Position numbers and translations under genes: made by a program. Positions 1,976 to 35,011 of a stretch of 35,011 nt of DNA are shown in pieces. Source of the DNA: a virus; IMG/VR virus record IMGVR_UViG_3300046318_000059, positions 1-35,011 of that record; one strand, written 5' to 3'. The number at the start of each line of letters is the position of its first letter. Position 1 is the first letter of the stretch. Below the pieces are notes generated by a model. It ran no database searches. It was given only the letters and a program-made list of their open reading frames with translations, and was not told the DNA's origin.

Positions 1976-2035
1976 TAAAAATCACAAAAAGTAAAAATAA
2001 TTGCAAATATTAGGGAAAACACCTAGCAAAAAGAC

Positions 2036-2064
2036 TTGCACAATTTGTTAAGTTAGCTTAATAT
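2036..2064 (+). promoter_or_regulatory. Sigma-70-like promoter for the rightward small-gene operon
   Basis: TTGCAC (2036-2041) and TAATAT (2059-2064) are separated by 17 bases, an ideal spacing with 4 of 6 matches at each box. It sits in the 198-base gap before the gene starting at 2109. A dyad operator (2048-2061) overlaps the spacer and -10 box. The stretch is AT-rich compared with the flanks. Confidence 0.6.
2048..2061. promoter_or_regulatory. Operator-like dyad TTAAG-TTAG-CTTAA (site A)
   Basis: Perfect inverted 5-base half-sites TTAAG/CTTAA flank TTAG, overlapping the -10 box of the promoter. The same dyad recurs at 34429-34442 and, with one change, at 29310-29323. Similarity to the 34429 site extends beyond the dyad, through ATA and TGTAGTTA. 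Binding by a phage repressor or activator is inferred. Confidence 0.6.
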
Positions 2065-2065
2065 G

Positions 2066-2093
2066 TAGTTATGGCAACAACGCCATATAACTA
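2066..2093 (+). repeat. Inverted repeat in the 5' leader
   Basis: TAGTTAT-GGC and GCC-AT-ATAACTA form a 10-bp stem with a 2-base bulge and a 6-base loop (AACAAC). It lies between the promoter and the first ATG at 2109. It could be a second operator or a leader-RNA hairpin. Confidence 0.45.
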
Positions 2094-2094
2094 A

Positions 2095-2112
2095 ATACAG
2101 GTGCATAAATGA
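2095..2112 (+). repeat. Repeated translation-initiation leader, copy 1
   Basis: ATACAGGTGCATAAATGA spans the ribosome-binding site (CAGGTG) and start codon of the 2109 gene. It is identical over 18 bases to 2335-2352, in front of the next gene. The proteins that follow differ, so the leader, not the gene, is duplicated. Confidence 0.75.
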
Positions 2113-2309
2113 AATACTTAAACATTTACACAAACACAACCCCAGCAGTTTATGTGTGCAGCATTTGCAAATCAACAGTTGAAGAAACTTTAGCTAGGGC
2201 GCAAGAGGCTTACTCTAATTACACATGGGAATGGGATGGCGTAAACCAGCCAAAAATCAAACACAAAAAATTTGCAGGATTTGATTCAGCAACAATTAGC
2301 ATTATTTAA
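2109..2309 (+). CDS. Small hypothetical protein (66 aa) with one CxxC
   Basis: First gene of the operon behind the promoter at 2036-2064. Its ATG lies 6 bases after CAGGTG in the duplicated leader. The 66-residue product contains VYVCSICKSTVEETLARAQE, a single CxxC in a beta-hairpin-like context, and a basic C-terminal half (KIKHKK). One CxxC alone cannot form a full zinc ribbon unless the protein dimerises. No family was recognised. Its early position suggests a host-takeover or accessory role, which is inference. Confidence 0.65.
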   Translation: MKYLNIYTNTTPAVYVCSICKSTVEETLARAQEAYSNYTWEWDGVNQPKIKHKKFAGFDSATISII

Positions 2310-33281: not shown

Positions 33282-33523
33282 GTGTTTCCCCTTGCTCTGA
33301 TTGCTTTTGCACACCAAGTCGCCAAAACATCTTCGCCTTCGTATTCAGCGTCAATACTTTCACACAACTTCGCACACGCCTCTCTTTCTTCTTGGCGCAC
33401 TAGCTCGGCAAAGCGTTCAAGGTCAATCGTCCGTACGTCTGATTCTTGTATTGCGCTAAACCAATCATTACCATCAGGAATCAACCCCGCTTGTTCAGCA
33501 AGCTCTTTAATTCGTTCGTTCAT
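33278..33523 (-). CDS. Small phage protein, 'ELVRQEEREACAKLCE' type (81 aa)
   Basis: The start is ATG 33523, with GGAGG 8 bases upstream; a longer in-frame extension overlaps another gene. The 81-residue product (MNERIKELAEQAGLIPDGND, LERFAELVRQEEREACAKLC, ESIDAEYEGEDVLATWCAKA, IRARGNT) has the long helix 'FAeLVR.eEREaCA..Ce......' followed by 'CA.AIRARG', abundant in phages and prophages of betaproteobacteria. Three Cys may pair or bind metal. The function is unknown. Confidence 0.78.
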   Translation of the reverse strand: MNERIKELAEQAGLIPDGNDWFSAIQESDVRTIDLERFAELVRQEEREACAKLCESIDAEYEGEDVLATWCAKAIRARGNT

Positions 33524-33621
33524 TTCAACGCCTCCAACAAAAACAAAACAAGCAAAGGGCAACAAAATACAAAACCAATGAAGCCAAGCTGCAATAGCGT
33601 TTCTTTTACAAATTCTTTCAT
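33520..33621 (-). CDS. Tiny membrane protein (33 aa)
   Basis: A 33-residue gene from ATG 33621 (ATGA overlap with the previous stop) to TGA 33520 (ATGA overlap with the next start). The sequence MKEFVKETLLQLGFIGFVFC then CPLLVLFLLEALK is one hydrophobic helix with two Cys in the membrane. The exact overlaps at both ends are the best evidence for translation. The next gene's GGAGG lies within its final codons. The function is unknown. Confidence 0.6.
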   Translation of the reverse strand: MKEFVKETLLQLGFIGFVFCCPLLVLFLLEALK

Positions 33622-33824
33622 TTATCCACCTCCCAAAGTTTGACAGCAGCAACGTGAAAATAATTGTGTTGATTCTTAAATTCGTTGTGCAATTCCATCA
33701 AAAAATTACAACACTCACGCCTAGCGTTCTTTTGTATGTTTCGCAACATTGTCACTAGTTCTTCCTGCTCCTGCTGCGTAACCAATCCTGATTCCAGTAT
33801 CTCAATCGCTTTGTCAATGTTCAT
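33618..33824 (-). CDS. Small helical hypothetical protein (68 aa)
   Basis: The 68-residue protein MNIDKAIEILESGLVTQQEQ EELVTMLRNIQKNARRECCN FLMELHNEFKNQHNYFHVAA has two or three amphipathic helices, with neighbouring Cys at 38-39. It has ATGA overlaps on both sides. No family was recognised. It could be a small regulator or inhibitor, but no residue pattern proves it. Confidence 0.65.
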   Translation of the reverse strand: MNIDKAIEILESGLVTQQEQEELVTMLRNIQKNARRECCNFLMELHNEFKNQHNYFHVAAVKLWEVDK

Positions 33825-33973
33825 TTGTGCGCCTTATAAAATCTTGAACACCAGTCACATAATCCGTCAGTTAACTTTGATACTTGCCCACAACAATCAC
33901 AAATCGGTTCAACAGTTTCTTTGCTGTTTTCCCGTCTAAACTTTTCTCTAAGCCACTCTGCTAACGTTTTCAT
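33821..33973 (-). CDS. Small zinc-ribbon protein (50 aa)
   Basis: I choose ATG 33973, because a longer frame would overlap the HTH gene by about 190 bases. The 50 residues have a basic helix (MKTLAEWLREKFRRENSKET) and then CDCCGQVSKLTDGLCDWCSR FYKAHK. Two Cys pairs (CxxC ... CxxC) with 11 residues between them make a zinc ribbon, which could bind DNA or RNA polymerase. It overlaps the HTH gene by 26 bases and the next by 4. No ribosome-binding site is clear, so translation is perhaps coupled. Confidence 0.62.
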   Translation of the reverse strand: MKTLAEWLREKFRRENSKETVEPICDCCGQVSKLTDGLCDWCSRFYKAHK

Positions 33974-34280
33974 AAATGTTGTTTGCCCAATAAAGTTGTC
34001 CAAAAATGCCTTGATGCTGGTTTGCCAATCGAAGTGCTTGCTCTGTTGCGCTTTTGCTTTTCTTTGGAAACCTGTACACCCGTACATAGCGTCCACCGTT
34101 GTTTGCTTTTGTGTCTCTGATTCCTCGTTCAATGTCATAAAACGCTTTCGTCTTCATCGCTGTGCGAATGTGGTTTTGCTGAATGCCAGTAACCTTAGCT
34201 ATCTCCTTTGCACTTATCCAGTCGTTTTCTTTTATTGCTTTCAGAATCCGTTGTTGAGTGTTTGTCAGCTCCATAACCAT
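33948..34280 (-). CDS. HTH DNA-binding protein (MarR/winged type, 110 aa)
   Basis: The 110-residue protein has an N-terminal winged HTH: LTNTQQRILKAIKENDWISA KEIAKVTGIQQNHIRTAMKT KAFYDIERGI, then RDTKANNGGRYVRVYRF as the wing. The C-terminal helices (KSATEQALRLANQHQGIFGQ) may dimerise. The start is ATG 34280, or ATG 34274 (MELTN), which has GGA in a suitable place. It is the second gene after the putative operator at 34429, so it is a good candidate for the protein that binds the shared TTAAG-N4-CTTAA dyads; this is inference. Confidence 0.75.
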   Translation of the reverse strand: MVMELTNTQQRILKAIKENDWISAKEIAKVTGIQQNHIRTAMKTKAFYDIERGIRDTKANNGGRYVRVYRFPKKSKSATEQALRLANQHQGIFGQLYWANNIYENVSRVA

Positions 34281-34413
34281 CCATGTAAAAAAGTGAGTTG
34301 CTAATCCGTGTTGGGTACTTCATAAAGTCCATGCTGCCCGGTCTCGGCATCAACTTAAAGCCTGTGTATAACTTTGCAAATCTGTCTATCTTTTCTGGTT
34401 GCTTCTTTTTCAT
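34195..34413 (-). CDS. First gene of the leftward early operon (72 aa, hypothetical)
   Basis: ATG 34413 has GAGG 5 bases upstream, and the operator/promoter at 34429-34444 lies directly before it. The product (MKKKQPEKIDRFAKLYTGFK, LMPRPGSMDFMKYPTRISNS, LFYMDGYGADKHST...) has a basic start and aromatic-rich middle of a kind seen in small phage early proteins. The last 28 codons overlap the HTH gene in another frame, so the C-terminus is less certain. The function is unknown. Confidence 0.6.
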   Translation of the reverse strand: MKKKQPEKIDRFAKLYTGFKLMPRPGSMDFMKYPTRISNSLFYMDGYGADKHSTTDSESNKRKRLDKCKGDS

Positions 34414-34428
34414 ACCATCCTCATGTAG

Positions 34429-34444
34429 TTAAGATAGCTTAATA
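34429..34444 (-). promoter_or_regulatory. Operator-like dyad (site B) with putative leftward -10 box
   Basis: TTAAG-ATAG-CTTAA (34429-34442) is a perfect 5-base inverted repeat, like site A at 2048. On the minus strand TATTAA (34444-34439) overlaps it and could be a -10 box, with TTGATT (34469-34464) 19 bases upstream. The flanking TGTAGTTA (34446-34453) also matches site A. It lies 16 bases before the start codon at 34413. Confidence 0.6.
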
Positions 34445-34560
34445 CTGTAGTTAAAAAAAAGCAAATCAAATATTTGGCAGTTTTACAAAATATTCATTTG
34501 TTCGTTAATCTGTCATGTTTACCCTATGTATTTAACTACTACTGCTTTACTACTACATCA
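34443..34560. other. AT-rich intergenic stretch with GTAGTAGT repeat
   Basis: No gene is visible. Between 34530 and 34557 the minus strand carries two GTAGTAGT units separated by AAAGCA, and the stretch ends near TTAAATACAT. The sequence is AT-rich and lies between the structured RNA region and the early promoter. It could hold regulatory sites; nothing more specific can be supported. Confidence 0.35.
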
Positions 34561-34564
34561 GGAT

Positions 34565-34855
34565 GGTTAGCCAATGCTTCGCTAAACCCCTTCTGTCAAA
34601 AGAATGGGTTAGCACAATCTCATCAGTCTGGCTGAGCATTATGCCTAGAATTCGCTGCTTCCCTCATCTCGGTTAAATTCTAGTAAACCGCTACGCTATG
34701 ATGAGCTTACCCCGTTCGGTAACGTAGATTCTCTCGATAACCCCACCCAACGTGTCAAACCAAAGATAGCGGGTCATCCATCCACTTATAGTCTTGGAAA
34801 ACTTCCTACATTCGGCTGGGTTCTGAGTCCCACTTTGTTCGCAGCTAACTTTGGT
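34565..34855 (-). ncRNA. Candidate structured non-coding RNA of unknown family
   Basis: No convincing gene lies between 34414 and 35011, but dense complementary segments do. They are: 34759-34770 with 34844-34855 (11 of 12 pairs); 34691-34695 with 34723-34727, stacked on 34707-34711 with 34718-34722; 34619-34625 with 34699-34705 (7 pairs), joining the bulge of that stem to an upstream strand; 34581-34589 with 34606-34613; 34796-34799 with 34803-34806; and a pseudoknot at 34645-34690. Loop lengths of the pseudoknot are sterically sensible only on the minus strand, which sets the likely orientation. I could not match it to tmRNA, RNase P, 6S, group I intron cores or a tRNA. Confidence 0.5.
34645..34690 (-). 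other. H-type pseudoknot inside the candidate ncRNA
   Basis: Minus-strand order: CGGTT (34690-34686), 2-base loop, CTAGAATT (34683-34676), 1-base loop, AACCG (34674-34670), 17-base loop, AATTCTAG (34652-34645). CGGTT pairs with AACCG and CTAGAATT with AATTCTAG, all Watson-Crick. A short loop 1 and a long loop 3 are the geometry of classic H-type pseudoknots; on the plus strand the 2-base loop would have to cross 8 pairs. Confidence 0.55.
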
Positions 34856-34874
34856 CTGCGTTCCGTTCAGGCAT

Positions 34875-34948
34875 AAAAAAGACCGCTTAAATCTGCATCT
34901 TGGTGGAAGACCCCCGTAAAAGGGGCAAGATACAGACTTAAACGGTCT
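34875..34948 (-). terminator. Leftward intrinsic terminator with 23-bp stem, possible attenuator
   Basis: Arms 34880-34902 and 34926-34948 are complementary over 23 positions, three of them G-U wobbles in RNA, with an inner CCCC/GGGG hairpin. On the minus strand the stem is followed by TTTTTT (34880-34875). The loop segment 34900-34909 is also complementary to 34956-34967 (10 pairs plus a 2-base bulge), which is transcribed earlier and could compete with the stem. Confidence 0.75.
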
Positions 34949-35011
34949 ACATCGGCTTCCACACCAATGCTTACATTCTACACAAATTTACAACTAATGC
35001 AACTCAGGCCA
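34949..35011. other. Right-edge non-coding stretch
   Basis: No gene is seen. On the minus strand it is the leader to the terminator hairpin and contains the CTTCCACACCAA segment (34956-34967, plus-strand reading) that can pair with the hairpin loop. The gene or promoter that feeds it lies beyond the window. Confidence 0.4.

Follow-up and report, generated by a model that had tools for sequence, protein, structure and literature searches.

Phages related to the one studied here use a single genomic slot, located between a Cro-like gene and a leftward operon, as a position for several unrelated folded RNAs, and whole RNA domains have been exchanged at this position between otherwise very similar genomes. 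The window (the whole stretch of DNA that was analysed, comprising all 35,011 bases of the linear IMG/VR virus record IMGVR_UViG_3300046318_000059) contains this slot. It may encode a minus-strand RNA of ~300 nt that consists of two parts, a common 5' module and an exchangeable 3' domain (type D), and that would be expressed early and act in trans. We estimate the probability of this reading at about 0.5.

Relatives were gathered by scans with the SSB protein, a 110-aa leftward HTH protein, the Cro-like protein and an 18-mer. These scans yielded 206 loci with a cro region besides the window, which all together reduce to 99 distinct downstream regions. The order of elements on the minus strand is constant: the Cro-like gene, a promoter, an RNA of ~95 nt ending in a terminator-like hairpin, the slot, an operator-like palindrome and the leftward genes. 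The slot carries an RNA of ~200–330 nt on the same strand in 79 of the 99 regions, and this synteny supports a functional minus-strand RNA well. Assignment by best BLAST match to reference types gives ten regions with type A, 26 with type B and 41 with type C, while types D and E are singletons (the window and L007, respectively). In the majority of the 20 untyped regions the hairpin is followed immediately by a replication-type gene, indicating that not every relative needs the slot RNA; a few others are of insufficient length or ambiguous. A second hairpin class is found mostly where the replication gene follows directly.

In the relative L089 the sequence runs from window position 35011 into window position 6 with 689 extra bases between them; thus ~690 nt are absent between the two ends of the window and the record is not a closed genome. 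As seen in L089, the absent segment contains the remaining, larger part of the cro gene as well as the divergent control region. Complete homologues of the Cro-like gene exist in relatives, and the L089 homologue matches the Pfam families YdaS_toxin and P22_Cro. At ~75% identity, window positions 2034–2113 resemble the sequence that precedes the cro gene in L089 and further relatives, and are possibly a second regulator or operator copy. The features of the region are as follows.

34994..35011, minus strand: C-terminal end (WPELH, then stop) of the Cro-like HTH repressor gene, read from the sequence and running off the contig.
34975..35002, minus strand: probable promoter of the ~95-nt RNA, recognized by its sequence, with TTGCAT (34997–35002), a 16-nt spacer and TAGAAT (34975–34980).
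34876..34971, minus strand: the ~95-nt RNA, with a P1 hairpin (34950–34969), the terminator-like hairpin (34926–34948 with 34880–34902) and then a T-run, defined by covariation and a covariance model.
34804..34870, minus strand: 5' module common to type A, with hairpins at 34840–34860 (CGCAG/CUGCG) and 34818–34831 (GGG/CCC), defined by identity to type A relatives.
34487..34803, minus strand: type D 3' segment of ~315 nt, unique to the window and bounded by homologous flanks.
Within the type D segment, minus strand: candidate helices predicted from one sequence, namely a closing helix (34778–34783 with 34561–34566), a pseudoknot (34670–34690 with 34645–34653) and a hairpin (34581–34613).
34429..34442, no strand assigned: palindrome TTAAGATAGCTTAA, probably an operator to which Cro would bind at the leftward promoter; in relatives, near-palindromes are seen again ahead of both the leftward genes and the rightward operon.
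34195..34413, minus strand: first leftward early reading frame past the slot (72 aa), taken from the ORF list and conserved in L089 and L023.

A sequence-only reading had singled out 34565–34855, in the interval between the 34195–34413 frame and the Cro-like gene end at 34994–35011, as a structured RNA within a long non-coding stretch. The non-coding stretch is real: the ORF list contains no leftward frame of at least 60 aa within 34414–35011, and the sole minus-strand frame of at least 30 aa (31 aa, 34867–34962) lies inside a hairpin. The limits proposed for the RNA are slightly off, as it more likely extends from ~34870 to 34550, and the structured RNA with the best support, 34876–34971, is a neighbour outside that interval. 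No tRNA or tmRNA was found in the window or in 17 loci.

Type A includes the Betaproteobacteria-1 RNA (Rfam RF02932), which scores 80–97 bits on the same strand in relatives. A search with the type A RNA against phage and plasmid collections produced no match, and RF02932 was not found in 369 genomes, in a scan in which no positive control responded. For types B, C and E, the loci scanned gave no Rfam match at the gathering score. Types B and C are structured RNAs with strong compensatory change. The type C structure contains 67 pairs, with 98.8% of cells paired, and 19 of the 67 pairs have changed on both sides compared with 13.9 in shuffles and 1–4 in slid controls, a result somewhat favoured by the derivation of the structure from the same alignment; the slid control is the stronger of the two because counts from shuffling related sequences cannot be read as probabilities. 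For type B, 20 of 43 pairs have changed on both sides, and the model gives 160.6 bits for L032 and 137.3 bits for L014, both of which were left out of model building.

The strand follows from the excess of G-U over A-C cells in type C (187 to 4), which places the slot RNA on the minus strand of the window. The same strand had been proposed earlier from pseudoknot geometry; the strand is borne out by this asymmetry, by the Rfam match in relatives and by the strand of the terminator-like hairpin, but the geometric argument is not a basis for it. It is very improbable that the slot functions as DNA instead, for instance as a replication origin or an operator array. Replication-type genes and operators are nearby, and a small GTAGTAG..GTAGTAG repeat (~34535–34556) lies between the slot RNA and the leftward promoter; however, types B and C covary as RNA, and DNA cruciforms would not produce such a strong one-strand bias.

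The structure of the neighbouring ~95-nt RNA is supported by many paired mutations, and all of its elements are present in the window: the P1 hairpin, a kissing helix between the P1 loop (GTGGAAG, 34956–34962) and CTTCCAC (34903–34909) inside the long terminator-like hairpin, that hairpin itself and the T-run. In an alignment of 19 sequences 96.9% of cells pair, and changes on both sides are observed in 22 of 36 pairs and in five of the seven kissing pairs, compared with 4–9 in slid controls. The figure of 22 is conservative, since three aligned sequences in which P1 is shifted by one base count against it. An excess of G-U over A-C cells (63 to 3) again sets the strand. The covariance model scores 97.2 bits on the minus strand of the window, which was part of the training set; in each phage it hits a single place, where the expected strand almost always scores higher, and it also detects loci outside the training set (e.g. 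L016, L029 and L069). The weaker matches on the opposite strand are the mirror of the same hairpin.

The probable promoter at 34975–35002 was missed by the automatic scan owing to its weak −35 box, and in relatives the corresponding position is occupied by TTGCRT-N17-NATAAT or TTGACA-17-CAGAAT. No promoter was found by the scan between the terminator-like hairpin and the slot RNA; thus, expression of the slot RNA rests on read-through or on some other promoter. Several other RNA-like elements were observed in the relatives. A tRNA-like sequence (TAGCTCAGTTGG...ACTTGTAATC...GGTTCGATTC-like arm), read by eye, lies upstream of the ~95-nt RNA in L014 and overlaps the Cro-like gene at its end. L011, L016, L107, L116 and similar loci contain an extra ~190–300 nt of non-coding sequence between cro and the ~95-nt RNA (TACCCACAAGTCTGGGTGTT... 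in L011), which may be another RNA. Further along the rightward operon, the Rfam int-alpA RNA (RF02996) is present at L038:9050–9116 and L053:9148–9214.

The main rival to a trans-acting RNA is a cis-acting leader or antitermination role, in which the ~95-nt RNA and the slot RNA would lie at the start of a leftward transcript and regulate its passage through the terminator-like hairpin to the leftward operon, similarly to the HK022 put RNA or the lambda nut/tR1 arrangement. Such a role would be in keeping with the position between cro and the leftward replication-type genes and with the conserved terminator-like hairpin, one strand of which takes part in a kissing interaction that could be switched. 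However, past the slot the leftward operon seems to be equipped with an operator and promoter of its own, many relatives lack a slot RNA and have the replication gene directly after the hairpin, and a cis element has no obvious need for several unrelated 3' domains; we therefore consider this role unlikely. HK022 put consists of two adjacent stem-loops acting in cis. It likewise is structured, belongs to an early region of lambdoid type and has a terminator nearby, but here the 5' hairpin kisses the terminator-like hairpin.

The slot of the window begins with the 5' module (~65–70 nt), which is 92–97% identical to most type A relatives and 84% identical over 45 nt in L030. The genomic slot and the 5' module of phage-borne RF02932 copies are therefore both present, at the corresponding position behind the terminator-like hairpin. 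Identity to type A relatives ends abruptly at ~34800 and identity to relatives returns within the AT-rich flank, near 34487 in some and near 34469 in L089. The intervening sequence is type D, in which the RNA body probably spans about 34550–34803. The window is rejected by all three models, those for RF02932 and for types B and C: RF02932 (gathering score 49.4 bits) produced no match at the gathering score or up to E = 10, and with filters off the best scores of the type C model R1 and the type B model R3 were 1.7 and −0.1 bits, respectively. The window thus differs from the Betaproteobacteria-1 RNA in its 3' domain sequence, while close relatives sharing its 5' module carry that RNA in the same slot and on the same strand.

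No Rfam family matched the window at the gathering score, and only chance-level matches appeared up to E = 10. GOLLD and ROOL, to which the region had been compared, are ornate non-coding RNAs associated with phages, but they are much larger than the slot RNA and neither family is among these weak hits, so that the comparison finds no support. Nor does anything speak directly for the roles proposed along with it, those of a decoy, a ribozyme or an origin RNA. No homologue of type D was found in the 99 relatives, and no DNA similarity above chance was found in phages or plasmids. Two exact type D words occur in 7 and 71 IMG/VR contigs with no extended similarity, by a method that reaches near-identical copies only. 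In the 369 genomes the matches were one of 23 nt in a bioF-like coding frame and one of 36 nt at 86%, both close to what chance would give in a set of that size. Two MAG contigs obtained from GTDB genomes with a terminase search were uninformative on the slot.

L089 is 97.6% identical to the window over 34800–35011 and 90.7% identical over 33378–34469, with nothing aligned between, yet its slot is of type A. L023 is 94.7% identical to the window over 33494–34446 and has a type B slot. Whole RNA domains have therefore been swapped between very close phages. The 5' and 3' parts also recombine, as in L010 the 5' part is of type B and the 3' part of type C, and L029 lacks the 5' module of the window but has a type A core. 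In L089 a small frame resembling an HNH endonuclease by eye (L089:1430–1830) separates the type A RNA from the leftward operon, and other type A phages have different small frames in its place.

Folding stability was discarded as evidence for an RNA. For the region in question, the minimum free energy z-score is −1.04 when the minus strand is folded and −1.36 for the plus strand, and 12 of 100 dinucleotide shuffles of 34565–34855 fold equally well or better. Since slot RNAs of relatives from the covarying types score alike (sense-strand z of only −0.4 to −1.8), the test is powerless here. Many mutually compatible helices had been taken as the sign of a functional RNA; the predicted structure of 34565–34855 contains 13 helices of at least 4 bp versus 11.8 ± 1.5 in dinucleotide shuffles, which is not above chance. 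As any sequence of such length yields many compatible helices, these neither support nor refute an RNA. The proposal of a functional minus-strand RNA stands on the synteny and on the compensatory changes in types B and C, and not on the window's own helices or on its 3' part, which has no homologue.

We infer that type D is itself a folded, functional RNA. The ordinary predicted stability of type D, its occurrence as a singleton, its rejection by the RF02932, B and C models, the failure of the scan to find a promoter between the hairpin and the slot RNA, and the relatives that lack a slot RNA count against the preferred explanation. A doubtful alternative is that only the ~95-nt RNA and the 5' module are functional and that type D came in as replacement DNA, destroyed the RNA previously present and is now a non-functional spacer. 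The missing homologue, a fold no better than that of shuffles and a breakpoint exactly at the end of the 5' module count in favour of such a spacer. However, type D has a GC content of 47% beside a flank of 24% and matches the other slot types in length, and clean whole-domain swaps are seen for the other types too.

In the preferred explanation of a two-part, trans-acting RNA, the setting would be an early immunity-type region composed of the Cro-like gene, promoter, ~95-nt RNA, slot RNA, operator and leftward early operon. The 5' hairpin module at 34804–34870, common to the Betaproteobacteria-1-containing RNAs of close relatives, would serve as a common handle, and type D (~34550–34803) would be one among several exchangeable 3' cassettes. 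The RNA would arise early, either as a product of read-through past the hairpin or through processing, and would act in trans on a factor of the host or of a competing phage. The 3' domain would set the target, which would explain its exchange between otherwise near-identical phages. There is precedent for trans action by RNAs from phage immunity or early regions in the regulatory sRNAs lambda OOP and PreS, P22 sar and P1 c4 (PMC12197685). Those RNAs are short antisense or Hfq-type molecules, whereas the slot RNAs are 200–330 nt in length, multi-branched and of exchangeable unrelated types. A more far-reaching and rather improbable version is that the slot corresponds, at the RNA level, to a variable cassette for anti-defence or immunity: a common 5' handle would be joined to one of five or more unrelated structured 3' domains, each directed against its own factor from the host or a rival phage, and type D would be a new one.

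Phage RNAs are usually found family by family, whereas here one locus holds several mutually replacing, unrelated structured RNAs. Among the slot types scanned Rfam covers one only, and the conserved kissing-loop RNA also has no Rfam match at the gathering score in the loci scanned. The locus thus offers a defined system for the function of structured RNAs in phages and for the swapping of RNA domains in a manner akin to protein anti-defence genes.
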